Source: Thermoproteus sp.
GTDB taxonomy: Archaea > Thermoproteota > Thermoprotei > Thermoproteales > Thermoproteaceae
Length of the DNA stretch: 64,000 nucleotides
Assembly: GCA_038893495.1 (NCBI GenBank)
Contig: JAWARJ010000001.1
Coordinates: 1 to 64,000, forward strand
Direction: 5' to 3'
A program made the position numbers and the translations under genes. The notes beneath the pieces are model-generated. The model was not told the origin of the DNA and ran no database searches. It saw only the letters and a list, made by a program, of their open reading frames with translations. Below are positions 19,788 to 44,928 of this stretch, piece after piece; the first letter of the stretch is position 1; each line of letters starts with the position of its first letter.

Positions 19788-21167
19788 TCACCCCAGGAAC
19801 TTGCGGTATTTGCCCAACGCAATTATGTTCGGCTCGCTCCTAGGCATCCTCAAGAGCGCCAAGTAGGCGGGGCTCGGCCTTACGTCGAGCCCCAAATAGT
19901 CGGCGAGCTCCAACACGGACTTAGTTATGTTCTCGTCTAGGTACCTCTCCGCGACGGTCTTGTCGAAGAACTCCAAGTCGTATTCCAACTCCCTCTCGTA
20001 TGTGGGCAACGTCTTGAAGACTACGTCCAACTTGTCGGACTTAGCCAGCTCTAAGAGGTAGGGGGCGTCCAATAGGGTGGGGGGCAGGCCCATGGCGTAC
20101 CAAGCTGAGGTGTACACTATAGCTCTAGGCATGTTGACGACGCCCCCCTCGCCCAACAGAGTCCTCCCGTACTCCTTCCAGCTGACCCTATCTCTAGTGC
20201 TGGGGACCAGCCTCGCGACTTCGAGTAGCCTATCTACATACCTAGTGACGAGAGAACGGTATCTCGACGAGGCCTCTTGTATTATGTGGAGGACCTCCTC
20301 GGGCACTTTGGGCTTGGAGGCGCAACAAGCGTTTAGTATAGACTCCTTGACCCTCTGGTATTCTTCAAGAGATACGTCGTACCTCACAGCCGATTGTATC
20401 GTAGCCGTGTGGTAGCCGGCGTATTGGACCACCTCTAGATGCGCCAGCCTCAAATTGTTCAGAGCGCCTCTGAACGGCGGAGACCCCATGCCCAATATGG
20501 GCCTTATCTTCACCCCCAACTCCGCCTCTATGTCCCCCATCTTCGAGAGGGCGTAGGTTATGGCTAGGGCCGAGGCCAAATGGCCGTGGCGGACGGCCGA
20601 ATCAGACTTGCCCAAAAACACCCTCACGTCTCTCACCTCCTCGCCCTTGAAGACCTCGCTCAAGATGCCTTTCAGTTTGAGCTGGGCGAAGGCGTCCTCC
20701 AGCAACGGTATGACCTCCACATCGCCGACGTCCACCCCCGTCTCGGACTTGTAGACCTCACTTTTACGTTTTAACATGCGCCTCACCAACATGACGGTGT
20801 CGACGTCTTCGACCATGGGGAGCACCACCCACCTCACGGCCTGCCTGTCGGCGTACTTGACCGAGAAGTAGTTGGCCACTATGGCGGCCTCAAGCGAAAG
20901 CACGGCCCTATCGAACTCCTCCAGTTTGGGGTTGGGGAGCCTCACGGTTATATATACCTTCTCGCCCAGTGGGATCCCGCTCTTAGTCGCCTTCATCACG
21001 ATCTCTTTGGGTTGCCCATAGGGCGTCATTTTCCCCTCGTAGTCCACCATGACTTCGTCGCATCCATAGGCCGTGTAGTCCACCAGCGCCTCGTCTACCT
21101 CCTCAGCGGCAGTGATCTTGACTGTGGTGTCGGGATGTTGCGTGCACATCAGGCGCGGGATGTGCAT
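19788..21167 (-). CDS. ppcA: Phosphoenolpyruvate carboxylase, archaeal type
   Basis: This enzyme adds bicarbonate to PEP to give oxaloacetate, one of the two carboxylations of the dicarboxylate/4-hydroxybutyrate cycle and an anaplerotic step elsewhere. The protein has 459 residues, about half the size of bacterial PEPC and typical of the archaeal form. It opens with IPRLMCTQHPDTT and has VDYEGKMTP near 42, FLGKSDSAVRHGHL near 186 and GMGSPPFRG near 229. The gene is leaderless from ATG 21167 with TATA at 21184-21195. Two CBS genes follow in the same operon. It is divergent from the alcohol dehydrogenase gene. Confidence 0.95.
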   Translation of the reverse strand: MHIPRLMCTQHPDTTVKITAAEEVDEALVDYTAYGCDEVMVDYEGKMTPYGQPKEIVMKATKSGIPLGEKVYITVRLPNPKLEEFDRAVLSLEAAIVANYFSVKYADRQAVRWVVLPMVEDVDTVMLVRRMLKRKSEVYKSETGVDVGDVEVIPLLEDAFAQLKLKGILSEVFKGEEVRDVRVFLGKSDSAVRHGHLASALAITYALSKMGDIEAELGVKIRPILGMGSPPFRGALNNLRLAHLEVVQYAGYHTATIQSAVRYDVSLEEYQRVKESILNACCASKPKVPEEVLHIIQEASSRYRSLVTRYVDRLLEVARLVPSTRDRVSWKEYGRTLLGEGGVVNMPRAIVYTSAWYAMGLPPTLLDAPYLLELAKSDKLDVVFKTLPTYERELEYDLEFFDKTVAERYLDENITKSVLELADYLGLDVRPSPAYLALLRMPRSEPNIIALGKYRKFLG

Positions 21168-21266: not shown

Positions 21267-21276
21267 ATTTATAAAT
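21267..21276 (+). promoter_or_regulatory. TATA box deciding the alcohol dehydrogenase start
   Basis: atttataaat is centred 25 bases before ATG 21296. It overlaps ATG 21275, so the shorter protein is preferred. Confidence 0.6.
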
Positions 21277-21295
21277 GGAGATATTTGCCGAGCGC

Positions 21296-22384
21296 ATGAA
21301 GGCCGCCGTACTGCATGCATACAACACGCCCCTTGAGGTAAGGGAAGTGGATATAAGCGGCCCGCACGAAGGCGAGGTCCTCTTGAGGGTGCTCTCAGCT
21401 GGCGTATGTCACAGCGACCTCTACGTGTTGGAGGGAGCCACACCGGTCCCGCCCCCCTTGGTCCCAGGTCACGAGGCGGTTGCGATAGTGGAGGAGGTCG
21501 GTCCGTCCGTTGAGGGCCTCTCGCCCGGCGATGTGGTGGTCACCTCGTTCATATGGCCTTGCGGCCGATGTAGGAACTGCGCCAGGGGGCAAGAGAACCT
21601 GTGCGAGAGGTTCGCCGAGGTCCGACTTAAGGGGGTGCTCCTCGACGGGAATACCCACCTCAGCATCAACGGGTCGCCCCTCAGGGTCTTTCTCGGAGGG
21701 CTTTGGGCGGAGGAGGCCGTCGTGCCGGCGTCCGCATTGGCGAAATTGCCCAAATCGCTACATGGAAGGCCTGAGCTTGCCATGTTGGGTTGTGCCTTCC
21801 TGACGGCATATGGCGCTGTCGTCAATTCCGCCTCCGTCGCGCCGGGCGACACAGTGGCCGTGATAGGCACTGGAGGGGTGGGGCTGGCCGCCGTACAGGT
21901 CGCGAGGGCCATGGGCGCTAGGGTCATAGCTATAGGCAGGAACCCGGAGAAGTTAAAGCTGGCCAGAGAGCTGGGCGCAGAGGTGGTCAACACAAGGGAG
22001 GTAGACGCTGTGAAGGCCGTGAGGGATCTGACCGAGGGGAGGGGCGCCGATGTGGTCATAGAGGCGGTTGGGAGCGAGGAGACGGTGGAGCTCGCCGTGG
22101 AGTCGTCGGCGCAGGGAGGGCGGGTGGTCTTGGTCGGATTGATGGCCGTGGGCAAGAAGGCGCCGTTACATGTGGCCAGAGTGGTGCGAGGAGGCATATC
22201 AATCGTCGGGAGTTACGGCGCCAGGCCGCGGGTGGACCTGCCCAAAGTCGTATCCCTAGTGGAGAAAGGACTCTTAATGCCTGAGCTTTTGGCGAGAGAC
22301 TTCTATAAGCTCGAGGAGATAAATCAAGCAGTCGAGGCGTTGAGGAGTGGGCGGTCCATAAGGCCGATAGTGCTCATAAGGTGA
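21296..22384 (+). CDS. Zinc-dependent alcohol dehydrogenase, candidate succinic semialdehyde reductase
   Basis: A medium-chain dehydrogenase of 362 residues. The catalytic zinc ligands are C38 (GVCHSD) and H59-E60 (PGHEAV); the structural zinc cysteines are C89, C92, C95 and C103. The nucleotide fold has VIGTGGVGLAAVQ. ATG 21296 gives the typical MKAAVLH opening and fits the TATA box. Its neighbours are PEP carboxylase and, a few kb on, the succinyl-CoA-reductase-type and 4-hydroxybutyrate-ligase-type genes, so reduction of succinic semialdehyde to 4-hydroxybutyrate is the likely role. This is inferred from context; the family alone would allow any alcohol. Confidence 0.85.
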   Translation: MKAAVLHAYNTPLEVREVDISGPHEGEVLLRVLSAGVCHSDLYVLEGATPVPPPLVPGHEAVAIVEEVGPSVEGLSPGDVVVTSFIWPCGRCRNCARGQENLCERFAEVRLKGVLLDGNTHLSINGSPLRVFLGGLWAEEAVVPASALAKLPKSLHGRPELAMLGCAFLTAYGAVVNSASVAPGDTVAVIGTGGVGLAAVQVARAMGARVIAIGRNPEKLKLARELGAEVVNTREVDAVKAVRDLTEGRGADVVIEAVGSEETVELAVESSAQGGRVVLVGLMAVGKKAPLHVARVVRGGISIVGSYGARPRVDLPKVVSLVEKGLLMPELLARDFYKLEEINQAVEALRSGRSIRPIVLIR

Positions 22385-22386
22385 GT

Positions 22387-23697
22387 TCAGTCCAGCATCC
22401 TGGCGGCCGATATGAGGGGATGCCACACCGGACCTGTATGAGGCATATACGAGTACTCTGCTAGGATCACCGAAGGTATCGGCTTTCCGATTAGTTGCGC
22501 CGCCATATCGACCACGGCGGCGACATAGGGCGTGCGCCCCACGACTTCAACCCCCACGAGGATGTCGCCAGAAGCCACCGCCTTCACGTGTAGCTCTCTG
22601 GATTCCTGCATGAAGGGTGCCCTATCCCGCGCGACCGCCACGGCGGACCTCACGTTGAGCCCTGCCCTCCTGGCCTCCTCCTCGCTTAAGCCGGCCTTGC
22701 CTATATACATATCGAAGAATTTAGTGACGGAGACGCCGACAACCGGCGGGAACTCCAACCTCTTCTCCCCATAACCTGCGTTGAAGCCCGCCACGTACCC
22801 CATCTTGTTGGCGTAGGGAGCCAGCGGGATCCAGACCGGCCGTCTAGTCACTGCGTGTGTGGTCTCCGCGACATCGCCAGCGGCATATACGTTGGGCATG
22901 GACGTCTCGAGGTATCGGTCGGTCCACACGGCGCCTGTCTCGCCTAACTTCGCCCCGAGCGCCACCGCCAGCTCGACGTTGGGCTTAACGCCAACTGCGA
23001 GAACAACCGCATCGGCCTCGACGCGCCCGCCAGAGGTCTCTACGTACTCGACGCGCCCGTTGCCCCCGATTCTCAACAACGTCTCGCCTAATCTGAGCTC
23101 CCCGCCCGCTACCGAGAAGTACTCATTCACGAGCCGGGCCATGTCGGCATCTAGCGTCCTGCCTAGAAGCCACCTGCCTGACTCCACCACGACGACCTTC
23201 TTGCCGGCTGAGAGCAAAGCCTCTGCAGTCTCAAGACCCACATATCCCCCGCCGACTACAACGACCCTCTCGGCGCCTAGGAGACCCTCCCTGATCGCCT
23301 CCAGCCCCGCTGGGTGGTGTATCACATATACCCCCTTCAGATCTATCCCCTCCACATTTAGAGGCCGCGGGCTGGCTCCCGTAGCTATTATTAGAAAGTC
23401 CCACTCCAACACGCCATTGTGGGCGCCCCTCAGCCTTATCCTATTGCCCTCAGAGGCCTCAGCCGTCGTATTGGCATATACCCTAACTCCCTTCTCTGCC
23501 GCGAATTGGTCCGGCGTATATAAGTACGGCCTTATGCGCCCCATCAAGGCGTAGGGAACGGCGCAGGGGGCGTGGGTTATGTAGGGACTCGCCTCGACTA
23601 AAATCACCTCCGCTGACGGATCTACGCGTTTGGCCTTAGAGGCTGCGGTGGCGCCCGCCGCGCCGCCGCCTACGACCACTATACGCCGTCTCGCCAT
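22387..23697 (-). CDS. FAD/NAD(P) oxidoreductase of the CoA-disulfide reductase / NADH oxidase type
   Basis: This 436-residue flavoprotein has an N-terminal FAD-binding VVVGGGAAGATAA, a second nucleotide-binding VVVVGGGYVGLETAEAL near 147, and the ATG-type NVYAAGDVAE FAD motif near 275. A cysteine in HAPCAVPYA (C45) sits where CoA-disulfide reductases and related NADH oxidases carry their single redox cysteine. A dimerisation domain follows. The gene starts 44 bases after the shortened iron-sulfur subunit gene on the same strand, after sdhA-sdhB. It might reduce CoA-disulfide, sulfur or O2, or pass NAD(P)H electrons to the neighbouring [2Fe-2S] protein; the last is speculative. Confidence 0.85.
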   Translation of the reverse strand: MARRRIVVVGGGAAGATAASKAKRVDPSAEVILVEASPYITHAPCAVPYALMGRIRPYLYTPDQFAAEKGVRVYANTTAEASEGNRIRLRGAHNGVLEWDFLIIATGASPRPLNVEGIDLKGVYVIHHPAGLEAIREGLLGAERVVVVGGGYVGLETAEALLSAGKKVVVVESGRWLLGRTLDADMARLVNEYFSVAGGELRLGETLLRIGGNGRVEYVETSGGRVEADAVVLAVGVKPNVELAVALGAKLGETGAVWTDRYLETSMPNVYAAGDVAETTHAVTRRPVWIPLAPYANKMGYVAGFNAGYGEKRLEFPPVVGVSVTKFFDMYIGKAGLSEEEARRAGLNVRSAVAVARDRAPFMQESRELHVKAVASGDILVGVEVVGRTPYVAAVVDMAAQLIGKPIPSVILAEYSYMPHTGPVWHPLISAARMLD

Positions 23698-23740
23698 ATA
23701 ATATAAACTTTATATACTATATATGCCTTTCTTTAAGTAA

Positions 23741-24052
23741 CTATTTATTTAAATCAACTACAAGATCTTTAATTATATTTTTATCGCTAATAGGTTCTAT
23801 ATATATATCCATGGTGTTTAGATCCATAAGCTTAGTGGTGCACGCCAGCTTTGGCGTCCCATTTATCTTGACAGCGCATGCGCCGCATACGCCCATCCTA
23901 CATGCATATCTAAACGCTATTGTGCCGTCTAGATCTTCACGTATAGTCAACAACAGGTCCAACACGGTGGTTTTGGGGTTGGCGTCTATGTGGTACGTCT
24001 GGTCGTACTGGACGCCGTCTTTAGACCGCCTTATAGTTACTCTATACTTCAT
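23741..24052 (-). CDS. sdhB: Shortened iron-sulfur subunit of succinate dehydrogenase / fumarate reductase ([2Fe-2S] domain only)
   Basis: The 103 residues form a plant-ferredoxin-like domain with C-R-M-G-V-C-G-A-C and a fourth cysteine eleven residues on (KLAC), which binds [2Fe-2S]. It ends DLVVDLNK, where SdhB/FrdB of usual size (about 230-300 residues) continues into the domain with the [4Fe-4S] and third cluster. No continuation exists in any frame before the next gene. ATG 24052 overlaps the TGA of the flavoprotein gene (TGATG), so the pair is coupled. Membrane-anchor genes are absent nearby, which points to a soluble or unusual enzyme. Confidence 0.85.
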   Translation of the reverse strand: MKYRVTIRRSKDGVQYDQTYHIDANPKTTVLDLLLTIREDLDGTIAFRYACRMGVCGACAVKINGTPKLACTTKLMDLNTMDIYIEPISDKNIIKDLVVDLNK

Positions 24053-25791
24053 CAGTACGCCCTCACTTCTGGGGGCCATCTCTCTATCTTCACGTCGGTA
24101 TACGCCACGCCGTAGCTCTCGCCTATCCTATAGACCAACGTGTGCTTCAACCAATTCCTGTCGTCTCTCTGTTGGTAGTCCAGCCTATAGTGCGCCCCGC
24201 GGGACTCCCGCCTGAAATATGCGCCGAGCAGTATGGCGTGGGCCGCCGCTATCATGCCGTCGAGCTCTATCACCTCCCTCAACTCCATATTGTATACTCT
24301 GCTTGTGTCGTTAATGTTTACGTCCTTCAAGTTCGCGGCCAGCCTGGCCACCGTGGTCAGGGCCTCGGCAATAGAGGATTCGCTCCTAAAAATGCCAGCG
24401 CCGTCGTGGAGGGCAGACTGTAGAGTCGACCTTATAGAGGCGGAAGAGATTCCGCCGGTCTCCTTCCTGCCCAGCCTGTAGAAAATTCTCCTCTCCTCTT
24501 CGTCCGCCACGGTCTTTACATATTCATCTAGGGCATTGGTCTTATTCTCTATGGCGTACTTCGCCGCTTGTTCTCCCGTCAGCCTGCCCCATACGGCGCA
24601 TTCGCTTAGTGAGTTAGAGCCGAGCCTATTGGCGCCGTGGACACTAACAGAAGCAGCCTCGCCAGCAGCCCAAAGCCCCCTCACCCAACTACCATCAGCC
24701 AACAAAACCCTACCATAGGTATCAGTATGGATACCGCCCATGAAGTAATGGACGGCGGGGGCTACTGGTATCAACTCGCTGAATGGGTCGACTCCTGCAT
24801 ACGTCTTGGCGAGCTCTATTAGTAGCGGGAGCCTCTCTTTCACTCTGGCGGGGTCTATATGCCTCACGTCCAGCCCTACGTAGCACATATCTCGCCACAT
24901 GAAGCCCCTGCCGGCTTTACACTCCATGGCGATAGCTCTAGCCACGACGTCTCTAGGCGCCAGCTCCATCTTCTGGGGGGCGTAGCGCTTCATAAAGCGC
25001 TCGCCGAGTCTGTTCACCAGATATGCCCCTTCGGCGCGGGCCGCCTCGCTGACGAGTATGCCGCTTGGGACCAACGCCGTGGGGTGCCACTGGACGAACT
25101 CCATATCCTTAAGCGCTATGCCCTCCCGTAGGGCGAAGCCCCAAATCTCTCCGGTATTGAGGTGGCCCATAGTCGTCAACTTGAACATCCTACCGCCGCC
25201 TCCCGCCGCTAAGATCCCCGAGGGCGCCCGGAAGAACCTCACCTCGCCTCTCCTCATGTCGAGCGCCACAACTCCATAGAATTTCTTATTTTTGATTACC
25301 AATTTTGTTACAATATGTTCTTCATAAAATTTAATATTATCGAATTGTTTTGAATATTTATATAGAGCGTTGAGCATATAAAAGCCCGTCTTGTCTTTAA
25401 CGAATACCGTTCTGGGCTTGCTCATCCCGCCGAAGAGCCTTAAGGCCAACGTGCCGTCTTGGTCTCTAGCCCACGGCACGCCTATCTTATCGAAGAACAA
25501 GATCTCGGAGGGCGCTTCTTGCGCCAACAACATGGCGGCGTCTTGGTCTACAAGGAAGTCGCCGCCCTTTACGGTGTCGTACGCGTGGAGGTGTATAGAA
25601 TCGCCTGTCTTTTCAGGATGTATGACCCCCGCCATGCCGCCCTCGGCGGAGATGCTGTGAGAACGAGGGCCTGAGACCTTGGTGACGATACATACGGTAA
25701 GCTTTTCGCTCGTCGCCGCCGCGGCTACGGCGGCCCTTAAGCCCGCCAGTCCGGACCCGACTACAACAACATCGCATTGTACTACCTCCAC
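24052..25791 (-). CDS. sdhA: Succinate dehydrogenase / fumarate reductase flavoprotein subunit
   Basis: This 579-residue subunit interconverts succinate and fumarate. It has the dinucleotide-binding VVVGSGLAGLRAA at residues 9-21, the RSHSISAEGGMAG segment with the histidine that usually binds FAD covalently, the substrate-site SEAARAEGAYLVN near 242 and HGANRLGSNSL near 380. In the dicarboxylate/4-hydroxybutyrate cycle it would reduce fumarate. It starts at GTG 25791, with TATA at 25813-25824. The next gene is only a [2Fe-2S] domain, so the electron path differs from a standard complex II. Confidence 0.93.
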   Translation of the reverse strand: MEVVQCDVVVVGSGLAGLRAAVAAAATSEKLTVCIVTKVSGPRSHSISAEGGMAGVIHPEKTGDSIHLHAYDTVKGGDFLVDQDAAMLLAQEAPSEILFFDKIGVPWARDQDGTLALRLFGGMSKPRTVFVKDKTGFYMLNALYKYSKQFDNIKFYEEHIVTKLVIKNKKFYGVVALDMRRGEVRFFRAPSGILAAGGGGRMFKLTTMGHLNTGEIWGFALREGIALKDMEFVQWHPTALVPSGILVSEAARAEGAYLVNRLGERFMKRYAPQKMELAPRDVVARAIAMECKAGRGFMWRDMCYVGLDVRHIDPARVKERLPLLIELAKTYAGVDPFSELIPVAPAVHYFMGGIHTDTYGRVLLADGSWVRGLWAAGEAASVSVHGANRLGSNSLSECAVWGRLTGEQAAKYAIENKTNALDEYVKTVADEEERRIFYRLGRKETGGISSASIRSTLQSALHDGAGIFRSESSIAEALTTVARLAANLKDVNINDTSRVYNMELREVIELDGMIAAAHAILLGAYFRRESRGAHYRLDYQQRDDRNWLKHTLVYRIGESYGVAYTDVKIERWPPEVRAY

Positions 25792-26047: not shown

Positions 26048-27463
26048 ATGTCGAAAGAGCTGACTGTATATAATCCTGCAACTGGCGAGGTGTTGGCTGT
26101 CCTTCCCTCTGCTACTAGAGAGGACGTCAGGCGTATTATAGACGAAGCGGATAGAGCGTTTACGGGCTGGGCGGCCCTTCCCCTAAGGGAGAGGGCGAAG
26201 CTCCTCTATAAAGCCGCCGAGTATATGGAGCTCTCCTTCGACGAGCTCTTAAAGACTCTAGTGGCGGAGTCCGGCAAGCCCATTAGAGACGCCAGAGCCG
26301 AATTGTGGAGGGCCGTTGAGATAGTCAGAGCCAGCGCCGAAGAGGCAAGATACGTGCTCGAGGGGAGCGCGCCTAGAGTCGACGCCTACGGCTATCCTCC
26401 TGGCAACGAGTCGCGGTTGGTCGTGGAGAGGAGGGAGCCCGTGGGGATAGTCGCCGGAGCCCTCAGCTACAACAATCCGGCATCTACTTTTGCCCACAAG
26501 GTGGCTCCCGTAGTAGTGGCCGGCAATACGGTCATAGTCAAGCCGTCGAGCTACACGCCCCTGACTGCGCTTAAGCTCTACGAGATATTCAGGAAGGCTG
26601 GAGTCCCCGAGGGCGTAGTCAACGTGGTGGTGGGAAGCGGCGAGGAGATATTTAACGAGCTGTTGGACAGCCCCAAGGTCTCGGGCATATCCTTCACTGG
26701 CAGCACGGCGGTCGGCCTCCAGGTGGCGTCTAAGGCCGCCGGCAGGGGCAAGAAGTATATGATCGCGCCCAGCGGCTCGGACCCCGCCATAGTCTTCAAG
26801 GACGCCGACCTCGAGAGGGCGTCCTCTGTGGTGGTTAGGGCCAGATTTGAGAATGCCGGACAGAACTGCAACGCCACCAAGAGGGTTTACGTGGAGCGGG
26901 AGGTCTACGAAAGGTTCTTGGGCCTCCTCCTCGAGAGGACTGCAAGGCTTAAAGTCGGCGACCCGACAGAGGAGGATACCGACATGGGCCCCTTGATATC
27001 CGACAAGATGGTCAAATTGATGGAGGGCTTTGTCTCGGACGCGGCGTCCAAGGGGGCCGAGGTCCTGTTTGGAGGCAAGAGGAGGGAGGGGAGGGGCTTC
27101 TACTTCGAGCCCACCCTACTCAAGGTCGTAGACGGGAGGGCCGAGATGAAGGTGTTGAGGGAGGAAGTCTTCGGGCCTGTCCTGCCTGTAGTGCCATTTA
27201 GCGGCGAGGAGGAGGCCGTAGAGCTCGCCAATTCGACCCAGTATGGGCTACAGGCGGCCGTCTTCACTAGCGACTACAAGAAGGCATATAGGGTCGCCTC
27301 GGCGATAAGGGCCGGCTCCGTCATGATAAACGACTCCACTAGGGTGAGGTTCGACGCGCTTCCTTACGGCGGCGTGAAGAACTCGGGCTTCGGCTGGAGG
27401 GAAGGCGTGAGGTCCACTATGTACTACTTCACCGAGCCAAAATTCTACGTCTTTGGGCTTTAA
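26048..27463 (+). CDS. CoA-acylating-type aldehyde dehydrogenase, probable succinyl-CoA reductase
   Basis: An aldehyde dehydrogenase of 471 residues. The catalytic cysteine is C274 in AGQNCNA. The position of the general-base glutamate (E-L-G-G in hydrolytic enzymes) is replaced: here the segment reads M-I-A-P-S-G-S-D-P with A240. Loss of that glutamate is typical of enzymes that transfer the acyl group to CoA rather than water. Together with the ligase one base downstream, this fits succinyl-CoA reductase of the dicarboxylate/4-hydroxybutyrate cycle, as shown for the Thermoproteus neutrophilus pair. Leaderless start at ATG 26048. Confidence 0.87.
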   Translation: MSKELTVYNPATGEVLAVLPSATREDVRRIIDEADRAFTGWAALPLRERAKLLYKAAEYMELSFDELLKTLVAESGKPIRDARAELWRAVEIVRASAEEARYVLEGSAPRVDAYGYPPGNESRLVVERREPVGIVAGALSYNNPASTFAHKVAPVVVAGNTVIVKPSSYTPLTALKLYEIFRKAGVPEGVVNVVVGSGEEIFNELLDSPKVSGISFTGSTAVGLQVASKAAGRGKKYMIAPSGSDPAIVFKDADLERASSVVVRARFENAGQNCNATKRVYVEREVYERFLGLLLERTARLKVGDPTEEDTDMGPLISDKMVKLMEGFVSDAASKGAEVLFGGKRREGRGFYFEPTLLKVVDGRAEMKVLREEVFGPVLPVVPFSGEEEAVELANSTQYGLQAAVFTSDYKKAYRVASAIRAGSVMINDSTRVRFDALPYGGVKNSGFGWREGVRSTMYYFTEPKFYVFGL

Positions 27464-27464
27464 T

Positions 27465-29351
27465 ATGTCGAAAGAATTTCTAGATATATATCAAGAGTCG
27501 CTGAAGGACCCCATAGGCTTCTGGGAGAAACAAGCCGCCAGGCTGTATTGGCGCTCCAAATGGGACAAGACGTACGACGACTCCAACCCCCCATTCTATA
27601 AGTGGTTCGTAGGGGGCGAGACCAATATCGCGTACAACGCCCTGGACAGACACGTCCAGAGCGGCAAGGCGAATAAGGCGGCCTTGATATGGGTCTCCTC
27701 CAGCGGCCAGACTAGAGTGTTGAGGTATTGGGACCTCTATAGGGAAGTCAACAGACTCGCCGTGTTGTTGAGGATGAGGGGTGTCGAGAGGGGCGATAGG
27801 GTGGCCATATACATGCCCATGATCCCCGAGGCGATGATAGCAATGCTGGCGGTCAACAGGATAGGCGCGGTGCACACAGTGGTCTTCTCGGGCTTCGGCG
27901 CGCAGGCGCTCGCCGATAGGATAAAAGACGCGGACGCCAAACTCGTCATAACTACGGACGGCATGACGAGACGCGGGAAGGTCATACCGTTAAAGCCGAC
28001 GGTAGACGAGGCCTTGGCGCTAGCCGGAGTCGACGCCGAGGTGTTGGTCTACAGACATGTGGGCATCGGAGCGCCCATGAGGGAGGGGAGGGACTTCTGG
28101 TGGCAGGAAGAGATAAAGGCGGTTCCACTGAACGCCTATGCGGAGCCCGAGTGGGTCTCCGGCGACGAGCCGCTCTTCATCCTCTATACCTCGGGCACTA
28201 CGGGCAAGCCTAAGGGCATCCTCCACCTACATGGCGCGTATATGGTCTGGATTTGGTACGCCTTCAACCATCTAGTGGGCGCCGAGAGGGAGTTCAGAGA
28301 CGACATAGTCTTCTTCTCCACGGCAGACATCGGCTGGATATCGGGCCACCACTACGGCGTGCACGGGCCTCTGCTGAACGGCCTCACTGTGCTTTGGTAC
28401 GACGATGCGCCGGACTATCCGCATCCAGGCATATGGTGGGAGATAGTGGACGCCTACAAGGCCACCCACATCCTCTTCTCGCCGACGGCTATAAGGCTCC
28501 TGATGAAATACGGCGACGAGTGGCCTAGGCGGTATAAACTGGACAGCCTAATTGCGGTCTACCCCACCGGCGAGGTGTTGAACGAGGAGGCCTACAAGTG
28601 GTTGAGGACCTATATATGTAGGGAGCCCTGCCAAATAGCGGACATATGGGGGCAGACCGAAACCGCTTGTTTCGTCACGGCGCCCGGCTCGCTCAACTTG
28701 GGCGGATTTAGGTACAAATACGGCTCGGTGGGCCTCCCCTATCCCACATTGAACCTAGTGATACTAGACGACGAGGGGAGGGAGCTCCCGCGCGGCCAGA
28801 AGGGACATGTGGCCGCAAAGCCGCCGTTGCCGCCGGCGTTTCTACATACAATATGGAAGGACCCCAAACGCTATGTGGACGGCTATTGGTCTAAATTCCC
28901 CGGTTACTACCTAACGGGCGATTTGGGGTATATAGACGAAGAGGGCCACCTGCACATATTGGGCAGATCTGACGACGTGATAAAGGTCGCGGGCCATAGG
29001 CTGTCCACGAGGGAGGTAGAGGACATAGTGGCGTCCCATCCCGCCGTGGCCGAGGCCGCAGTTGTCAGCATCCCCGACCCCGTGAGGGGAGACGTACTGG
29101 CTGTATTCGTCGTGCCTAAAGCCGGCAGGCATATAACCGAGGAGGAAGTCGTGTCGCACCTCAAGAAGAGCCTAGGCCCTCTGGCTGTCGTGGGGAAGGT
29201 GGCCATAGTGGAAAAGCTCCCTAAGACGAGGACGGGGAAGGTCATGAGGCGTGTCTTGAGGGCCATGGCGCTGGGTCAACCTCTCGGCGATTTGAGCACA
29301 TTAGAGGAAGAAGAGGCGATAAGGGAAGTCGAGTCGAAACTCAAGAGCTAA
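27465..29351 (+). CDS. AMP-forming acyl-CoA ligase, probable 4-hydroxybutyrate-CoA ligase
   Basis: A protein of 628 residues of the acetyl-CoA synthetase family with all core motifs: the phosphate loop YTSGTTGKPKG at 244-254, IWGQTETACF near 402, YLTGDLGYIDEEGH and GRSDDVIKVAGHR, and the acyl-adenylating lysine K592 in TRTGKVMRR. ATG 27465 lies one base after the stop of the aldehyde dehydrogenase, so they form an operon. From the pairing I infer activation of 4-hydroxybutyrate to its CoA ester; acetate or propionate activation would use the same motifs. It overlaps the end of hypF by 11 bases, convergently. Confidence 0.88.
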   Translation: MSKEFLDIYQESLKDPIGFWEKQAARLYWRSKWDKTYDDSNPPFYKWFVGGETNIAYNALDRHVQSGKANKAALIWVSSSGQTRVLRYWDLYREVNRLAVLLRMRGVERGDRVAIYMPMIPEAMIAMLAVNRIGAVHTVVFSGFGAQALADRIKDADAKLVITTDGMTRRGKVIPLKPTVDEALALAGVDAEVLVYRHVGIGAPMREGRDFWWQEEIKAVPLNAYAEPEWVSGDEPLFILYTSGTTGKPKGILHLHGAYMVWIWYAFNHLVGAEREFRDDIVFFSTADIGWISGHHYGVHGPLLNGLTVLWYDDAPDYPHPGIWWEIVDAYKATHILFSPTAIRLLMKYGDEWPRRYKLDSLIAVYPTGEVLNEEAYKWLRTYICREPCQIADIWGQTETACFVTAPGSLNLGGFRYKYGSVGLPYPTLNLVILDDEGRELPRGQKGHVAAKPPLPPAFLHTIWKDPKRYVDGYWSKFPGYYLTGDLGYIDEEGHLHILGRSDDVIKVAGHRLSTREVEDIVASHPAVAEAAVVSIPDPVRGDVLAVFVVPKAGRHITEEEVVSHLKKSLGPLAVVGKVAIVEKLPKTRTGKVMRRVLRAMALGQPLGDLSTLEEEEAIREVESKLKS

Positions 29352-43206: not shown

Positions 43207-44928
43207 ATGGGCGTCGTGATCCCTCCCTCCATGAAGTACAAAACTATAGACGTGCAGGAATACGTCAAGATATGGCGGAGCTCCGTCGAGAGCCTCGAGG
43301 CGCTAACTAGGTTTTGGGGCGATTGGGCTCGCCGACTTGTCTGGCGGACTCCATGGCGTGATGTATTCGACGGGAGGCGTTGGTTCCCTGGAGGGGAGCT
43401 CAACGCGTCTGTCAACGTGTTGGATAGGCACAGGGGGACCTACGTATGGGATAAAGTCGGCCTCATCTTCGAGACTGAGGAGGGGAACGTCCGCGCGTAT
43501 ACCTATTCGCAACTACATGCCCTAGTCGAGGCAGTTGCCGCCAAGTTCAGGGCATTGGGCCTCGGTATCGGCGATTACGCCGTCATATACGCCCCTCCAC
43601 TGCCGGAGACATTGGCATCGGCCTGGGCTCTGGCTAGGATCGGCGCAACGTTCGAGTGGGTGTTCACAGGCTGGGGCCGTTGGTTTCTAGCGATGCGGCT
43701 GAGGGCTCTGCGCCCCAAGCTGGTTGTGACCGCAGATGCCTTCCCCCGAAGGGGGAAGCCCATACGCGTGAAGGACAATGTGGATGCGGCTCTTAAGTCT
43801 TCGGGCCTAGAGGCGAAGGTCGTCGTCGTGCCTAGGATGGGCGTGGACATCTCGACAGGCCCCAACGACATATATCTGGCCGACATTCCCGACTCGGGAG
43901 AGCGCGGACCCGCCTACGTGGAGTCATCCTACCCCCTCTTCGCGTTGCCGGCGACCGAGGCCGAGGGGTCTGAGGGCACTGTGTTGCATGAGACCGGCGG
44001 ATATCTGACTCAGACCTATGCCACGACGATTTGGATGGGGCTTAGGCCGAGGGACACTTACTTCTGCACTGTGTTGCCCGGTTGGATAACTGGCATAACC
44101 TACGTCCTCTTCGGCCCCTTTATGGTCGGATCTACAGTCGTCGTCTATGAAGGGGGGCCGGACTACCCCAGTTGGGACAGGTGGTGGGAGATTGTGGAGA
44201 AGCGCGCAGTTACTGTGTTTTTAACCACAGTGGGGGCGCTCCGCCTCCTATCTAAATTCAGCTCGGTGGAGCGCTATAACCTCGACACGTTGAGGCTTGT
44301 CTTAACTACGGCTGAGCCCATGGAGGAAGAAGTGTGGTGGTGGGCATATAGGTCGATAACTGGACGCGCCGCTGTGTACGACTACGACCCGAAGGGGGGT
44401 GGAGGTAGGATCCCTGTGATACATTATTATATCACGCGGGAAGTCGGCACGTTTTTCGCAGGCAATCTGCCGAACTTCGCCTTCGCGCCGATTAAGCCCG
44501 GCACTAGCGGGCTTCCATTTCCCGGATTTGCATTGGACTCCATAGGCCCTGATGGAACGTCGGTGAGGAACTCGGCGGGTAGGCTGGTCTTGAGGATGCC
44601 GTGGCCGGCCATGCCCTTAGAGTCCCATAGATGGCGTAGCGGACTCTTCTACCTTGGCGACTACGGCATAATCGACTCGCAGATGTATGTGAGGGTGGTG
44701 GGGAGGGACGACGGCGTGTTGAAGGTAAACGGATACAGAATCTCTCCAGGCGATATAAAAAAGGCGCTGGCCGAGGCGGGCGTAGAGGCCGAAGTGAAGG
44801 CTAGATTCGACCCGCAGAAGTTCCAAGTCCCCCTAGTGAGGACAAGGGCACCTCCAGAGGAGGTGATAAGGACTGTTAGGACCCTTGTGGGGCCCATAGC
44901 GGAGCCTGAAGTAGAACAACTCTACTAA
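43207..44928 (+). CDS. Degenerate acyl-CoA synthetase homolog (probable pseudoenzyme)
   Basis: The 573 residues align in order with the AMP-forming ligase at 27465: ELNASVNVLDRH, RWFLAMRLRALRPKLVVTAD, PDYPSWDRWWEIVEK, LFYLGDYGIID and GRDDGVLKVNGYRISPGDI. Yet the phosphate loop T-S-G-T-T-G-x-P-K-G is gone: at that place (about residue 248) stands FALPATEAEGSEGTVLHE. The Y-x-x-T-E-T motif is also lost (YDYDPKGGGGRIP), and the C terminus stops before the catalytic lysine. The frame is fully open, so it is kept by selection, perhaps as a binding or regulatory subunit. It lies 6 bases after the 196-residue gene; ATG 43231 is an alternative start. Confidence 0.72.
   Translation: MGVVIPPSMKYKTIDVQEYVKIWRSSVESLEALTRFWGDWARRLVWRTPWRDVFDGRRWFPGGELNASVNVLDRHRGTYVWDKVGLIFETEEGNVRAYTYSQLHALVEAVAAKFRALGLGIGDYAVIYAPPLPETLASAWALARIGATFEWVFTGWGRWFLAMRLRALRPKLVVTADAFPRRGKPIRVKDNVDAALKSSGLEAKVVVVPRMGVDISTGPNDIYLADIPDSGERGPAYVESSYPLFALPATEAEGSEGTVLHETGGYLTQTYATTIWMGLRPRDTYFCTVLPGWITGITYVLFGPFMVGSTVVVYEGGPDYPSWDRWWEIVEKRAVTVFLTTVGALRLLSKFSSVERYNLDTLRLVLTTAEPMEEEVWWWAYRSITGRAAVYDYDPKGGGGRIPVIHYYITREVGTFFAGNLPNFAFAPIKPGTSGLPFPGFALDSIGPDGTSVRNSAGRLVLRMPWPAMPLESHRWRSGLFYLGDYGIIDSQMYVRVVGRDDGVLKVNGYRISPGDIKKALAEAGVEAEVKARFDPQKFQVPLVRTRAPPEEVIRTVRTLVGPIAEPEVEQLY

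Follow-up and report, generated by a model that had tools for sequence, protein, structure and literature searches.

The locus examined here raises the question of whether a fumarate reductase can consist of a flavoprotein and half an iron-sulfur (Fe-S) subunit and, if so, what supplies its electrons. It lies in a 64,000-nucleotide stretch of Thermoproteus sp. DNA (contig JAWARJ010000001.1, positions 1 to 64,000; "the window"), in which a previous interpretation of the letters alone (the sequence-only reading) had placed three genes at positions 22387-25791. All three were found at that place, on the minus strand: a complete FrdA/SdhA-type flavoprotein (24052-25791; 579 amino acids [aa]) in which the residue that links flavin adenine dinucleotide (FAD) and the substrate-site residues are kept, a lone [2Fe-2S] protein equivalent to only the N-terminal domain of FrdB/SdhB (23741-24052; 103 aa), and an FAD-containing pyridine-nucleotide flavoprotein of the coenzyme A (CoA)-disulfide-reductase type (22387-23697; 436 aa), which is a candidate NAD(P)H module. 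Comparison of these genes with those of related genomes suggests that the FrdA-[2Fe-2S] pair is very probably a soluble, quinone-independent fumarate reductase of the dicarboxylate/4-hydroxybutyrate (DC/HB) cycle. To the full statement, that this soluble pair is the enzyme of the cycle and that NAD(P)H, acting via the flavoprotein, is its simplest donor, with ferredoxin as the main alternative, we assign a probability of about 0.6.

FrdA matches NCBIfam model NF004724 over its full length at 905.7 bits (cutoff, 826) and TIGR01812 at 693.4 bits (cutoff, 567.3). Aligned with Escherichia coli FrdA and relatives, it carries the motifs RSHS, HPTAL, SEAAR, PRD, HYFMGG, and HGANR and retains the covalent-FAD histidine together with the His, Glu, Arg, His, and Arg of the dicarboxylate site. 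The roles of these residues are presumably those generally known for the succinate dehydrogenase (SDH)/fumarate reductase family. L-Aspartate oxidase was rejected as the identity of this protein, as its scores fell under the cutoffs and also under those of the SDH/fumarate reductase models.

The Fe-S protein matches Pfam Fer2_3 at 107.9 bits and has the four cysteines of the [2Fe-2S] domain. A profile search detected no second Fe-S domain ([4Fe-4S]/[3Fe-4S]) in it; the protein stops at the domain boundary, and TIGR00384 (dhsB) covers it only at profile positions 9-101 of 222. The gene as first listed begins at 24079, and the next ATG (24052) is most likely the true start, since the alignment with relatives begins at this codon and several of them carry stop codons immediately before it. 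The ATG shares the sequence TGATG with the FrdA stop codon, an overlap typical of translationally coupled genes. The flavoprotein gene follows after 43 bases, a spacing too small to leave room for a frame-shifted remainder of SdhB, and no SdhC or SdhD gene follows the Fe-S gene in the cluster. The sequence-only reading was therefore correct in ending the Fe-S subunit after its plant-ferredoxin-like domain, in seeing no membrane anchor genes behind it, and in recognizing a pyridine-nucleotide flavoprotein close by; only its spacing of 44 bases was one too many. The predicted fold of the Fer2 protein (mean predicted local distance difference test score, 75.5; low at the cluster loop and C terminus) has FrdB/SdhB as its best match and, as a model, adds little to the sequence.

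As judged from comparative data, the short Fe-S protein is kept under purifying selection, and its truncation is no error. We found the protein in 13 Thermoproteaceae genomes, plus a remnant in Pyrobaculum aerophilum. All 13 proteins end at [IV]KDL[VI][VTA][DE] plus at most four residues, and this shared end point is the exact onset of the second Fe-S domain in the full SdhB proteins of the same genomes. The cluster cysteines are invariant, and the ratio of nonsynonymous to synonymous substitution rates (dN/dS) is about 0.08 to 0.17 in the four pairs where it was calculable. Every genome with a cluster-type 4-hydroxybutyryl-CoA dehydratase (13/13) encodes the short protein. A pattern scan for lone Fer2 domains covered 84,980 genomes, and the 31 loci outside Thermoproteaceae all lay in long SdhB frames or were cut by a contig end. 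Likewise, no lone Fer2 domain outside this family was detected in a class-wide search or among the phylum-wide matches listed, which stop short of the weakest ones and where the other Fer2_3 frames had at least 196 aa, except for one cut by a contig end; the viral contigs searched for homologues gave no match. In the phylogenetic tree, the cluster FrdA forms a separate clade branching beside the canonical SdhA of the family (support for this position, 0.78, which is moderate). These sequence relationships are consistent with a probable origin of the FrdA-Fer2 pair within Thermoproteaceae, in which the SDH of the family was duplicated and one copy then lost the second Fe-S domain. The P. aerophilum remnant (genome G001, L052:9429-9938) is a lone Fer2 domain beside the 4-hydroxybutyryl-CoA dehydratase gene, without FrdA; its N terminus continues into unrelated upstream sequence, and it resembles a leftover of a cluster that was lost.

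The window's genome (G000; 1,995,394 bases) also has a complete sdhA-B-C-D operon (L008:4931-8218, about G000:C1:945930-949217), which does contain membrane anchors and has its own SdhA, sharing 58% identity with the window FrdA. A search of this genome for a separate SdhB C-terminal domain returned only full SdhB matches. The gene content of Pyrobaculum neutrophilum is simpler. This genome (G005), in which the identities of FrdA, the Fe-S protein, and the flavoprotein to those of the other genomes fit the published table within about 2 points (PMC12794621), has a single SdhA, which is the cluster copy, and its sole SdhB-type Fer2_3 protein is the short one. SdhC was not found in the P. neutrophilum genome, and the search for the SdhB C-terminal domain gave only weak matches (E value of 2e-4 or worse; 28-30% identity) within larger proteins. 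In the same article, the DC/HB cycle is cited as functioning in P. neutrophilum (PMC12794621). Since fumarate reduction is a step of this cycle and only the reduced set is present, the pair is the sole complex-II-type candidate in this organism; as this candidate has no quinone-reactive part, its donor should be soluble. The weak SdhB C-terminal matches (G005:C1:367221-367523 and 296892-297131) are in frames of 437 and 475 aa, which are possibly HdrD/GlcF-like, and the distance of one of them to the cluster is roughly 8 kb.

The genomic context points to the same cycle. The three genes sit in the published DC/HB cluster of Thermoproteaceae, which has been tabulated gene by gene for P. neutrophilum as the cluster of Thermoproteales (ACB39366-ACB39373; PMC12794621) and listed in part for Thermoproteus tenax (PMC3189178). 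The P. neutrophilum cluster has the same genes, among them orthologues of all three window proteins (FrdA, the Fe-S protein, and the flavoprotein). The FrdA-Fer2 pair is inside the cluster in the window's genome and in nearly all relatives; T. tenax and T. uzoniensis have the Fe-S gene on the strand opposite to FrdA, where it comes after the gene for succinic semialdehyde reductase. P. aerophilum is without the cluster FrdA, and that of P. oguniense is interrupted; both species keep the full SDH. The former is an obligate heterotroph, and the latter is argued to be probably incapable of autotrophic growth (PMC12794621). Together with the P. neutrophilum gene content, the loss or interruption of FrdA in these two species suggests that the reduced form sorts with the CO2-fixation cycle and the full SDH with respiration, a correlation drawn from genomes. 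In P. oguniense (genome G006, L042), the cluster FrdA and flavoprotein are both interrupted, while the intervening Fe-S gene is intact.

The genomes themselves show gene content, conservation, active-site residues, and distribution; from these we infer complex formation, cofactor content, reaction direction, solubility, and a donor as follows. In the simplest reading, FrdA and Fer2 would form a cytoplasmic heterodimer, in which the [2Fe-2S] cluster would take the position that the FrdB N-terminal domain has in complex II. In complex II, the [2Fe-2S] domain adjoins the FAD. A soluble carrier would deliver electrons to the [2Fe-2S] cluster of the lone Fer2 protein, which would pass them to the FAD that FrdA binds covalently, where fumarate would be reduced to succinate. 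With neither the [4Fe-4S]/[3Fe-4S] domain nor the anchors present, no route to quinone would be left. The simplest donor, in the window's genome and in most species of Pyrobaculum, would be NAD(P)H acting via the neighboring flavoprotein; ferredoxin is the main alternative.

The flavoprotein matches Pyr_redox_2 at 188 bits, has the accompanying dimerization domain, and is closest to the CoA-disulfide reductase of Pyrococcus horikoshii (E value, 4e-103), although its score of 321.3 bits against the CoA-disulfide reductase equivalog TIGR03385 is below the cutoff of 578.8. It is intact and directly downstream of the Fe-S gene in seven genomes. The cluster flavoproteins form their own clade, apart from a universal CoA-disulfide-reductase-like paralogue at other loci. 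They belong to the same superfamily as AorC (PDB 8c0z_E), for which a role in connecting Fe-S clusters with NAD+ has been proposed (PMC6365974). The CoA-disulfide-reductase group is known for the NAD(P)H-driven reduction of di-, per-, and polysulfides (PMC6026696). The position of the flavoprotein, its separate clade, and the relationship to AorC make NAD(P)H, through the flavoprotein, a plausible donor at somewhat less than even odds. A slightly more tentative claim is the complete arrangement, in which a minimal, soluble, membrane-independent fumarate reductase of one FAD subunit and one free-standing [2Fe-2S] protein would be fed by NAD(P)H via a recruited flavoprotein of the CoA-disulfide-reductase type.

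Some explanations dispense with a soluble two-protein enzyme altogether, and the sequence-only reading had named two of them as fatal to its proposal: a sequencing error that truncated sdhB, and a second Fe-S domain and anchors encoded elsewhere. For the first kind of explanation, in which sequencing error or decay of sdhB produced the short Fe-S gene, speaks the Fer2 remnant of P. aerophilum, which has no FrdA beside it and does resemble a relic; the common end point, invariant cysteines, and low dN/dS across 13 genomes reduce this explanation to a practically negligible one, and 13 independent sequences exclude the error. It is also very improbable that the pair is part of a membrane complex in which the full SDH supplies the anchors and the second Fe-S domain. 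The required sdhABCD genes are present in the window's genome, but the full SdhB has its own Fer2 domain and its own SdhA, and P. neutrophilum holds the pair without any such partner. The search for the missing SdhB part and for SdhC/D, which the sequence-only reading had proposed, thus ends with a separate complete operon in the window's genome and with neither in P. neutrophilum, where rescue by separate components is excluded.

The donor is where the alternatives are closer. Several observations weigh against the NAD(P)H-fed pair as the enzyme of the cycle: the flavoprotein is of the CoA-disulfide-reductase type, with the catalytic cysteine (HAPC motif) in all cluster copies; in T. uzoniensis and the metagenome-assembled genome G011, the pair has been kept but no flavoprotein adjoins it; that of T. 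tenax is relocated and split; the full SDH, which could contribute, is also present in most genomes, including that of the window; and P. calidifontis, P. ferrireducens, and WP30 are described as heterotrophs, yet they keep the cluster. The T. tenax flavoprotein (G015:C1:1144709-1146012, L087) is about 190 kb from the cluster in two overlapping frames, reflecting a frameshift or a sequencing error. Persistence of the pair without an intact neighboring flavoprotein, the catalytic cysteine, and the similarity to the P. horikoshii enzyme would all be accounted for if reduced ferredoxin docked directly on the lone [2Fe-2S] protein and the flavoprotein were an independent CoA-disulfide, persulfide, or polysulfide reductase. 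Ferredoxin has already been hypothesized as the fumarate reductase donor in Desulfurococcales running the same cycle (PMC12794621). Nevertheless, the position of the flavoprotein close behind the Fe-S gene in seven genomes suggests a functional link, and the genomes hold the separate universal paralogue; we regard ferredoxin as a candidate nearly equal to NAD(P)H, if slightly less probable. Improbable, by comparison, is a thiol-linked route resembling that of the methanogen thiol:fumarate reductase TfrAB, in which CoA-SH or another thiol would donate electrons to the pair and the flavoprotein would operate between this thiol and NAD(P)H. TfrB does begin with the same Fer2 domain (NF004898, first 99 positions), and the neighboring flavoprotein is of a disulfide-reducing type, but the Cys-rich, thiol-handling part of TfrB is absent from the pair and no gene for it is in the cluster. 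The soluble chain of the sequence-only reading consequently stands as far as a reduced, anchor-less fumarate reductase of the CO2-fixation cycle is concerned, as indicated by the P. neutrophilum gene content; its NAD(P)H step is possible but weaker, given the CoA-disulfide-reductase-like character of the flavoprotein and its absence from the pair or its splitting in some relatives.

Around the locus, the other genes of the DC/HB cluster were assigned by position and by identity to the P. neutrophilum cluster (PMC12794621): phosphoenolpyruvate carboxylase (19788-21167, minus strand), succinic semialdehyde reductase (21275-22384, plus strand), succinyl-CoA reductase (26048-27463, plus strand), and 4-hydroxybutyrate-CoA ligase (27453-29351, plus strand). 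The 4-hydroxybutyryl-CoA dehydratase is encoded elsewhere in the same genome (G000:C1:524295-524894, plus strand), at a distance of about 500 kb from the other cluster genes, an arrangement that most relatives do not share. The window also has, at 43255-44901 (plus strand), a second gene resembling acyl-CoA synthetases, which is 31% identical to the 4-hydroxybutyrate-CoA ligase.

The genes and their cluster are already published. In the P. neutrophilum table, the small protein is named SdrB/FdrB, and the accompanying text, as far as examined here, does not mention the missing half of SdhB (PMC12794621). We found no statement that the Fe-S subunit misses its second domain in the openly searchable literature. 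The natural redox partner of the DC/HB-cycle fumarate reductase was given as unknown in 2025 (PMC12794621, Figure 1), and, by the gene content of P. neutrophilum, it should be soluble and could be looked for using two or three small proteins. If the proposal is true, the locus would be a clear case of complex II becoming cytoplasmic after a duplication in which one copy lost half of its SdhB, with consequences for the question of whether these archaea couple fumarate reduction to the membrane.

The window pair amounts to complex II pared down to its two innermost redox centers. It shares with FrdABCD/SdhABCD a full-length FrdA with the active-site residues and the four-cysteine [2Fe-2S] domain, and it differs in having neither the [4Fe-4S]/[3Fe-4S] domain nor membrane anchors, and hence no quinone site. 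The flavoprotein is related over its full length to CoA-disulfide/persulfide reductases (i.e., the P. horikoshii enzyme, 4fx9, and 3kd9), with which it shares the HAPC catalytic cysteine and a C-terminal PVW-PL motif; in contrast to them, it scores below the equivalog cutoff and is embedded in a fumarate reductase operon. The TfrAB enzyme of methanogens is, like the pair, anchor-less and has a related flavoprotein and an N-terminal Fer2 domain, whereas TfrB continues into a long C-terminal Fe-S/Cys-rich part that is absent here (99 of 488 TfrB profile positions matched). Hydrogenobacter thermophilus, going by the title of a study (Miura et al., 2008, J Bacteriol 190:7170), has a soluble, NADH-linked fumarate reductase in the service of a CO2-fixation cycle, traits that the window proteins may share. 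The composition differs, the Hydrogenobacter enzyme having five subunits, FrdABCDE. Soluble fumarate reductases of other composition than the FrdA-[2Fe-2S] pair are known, then, in Hydrogenobacter and as TfrAB.

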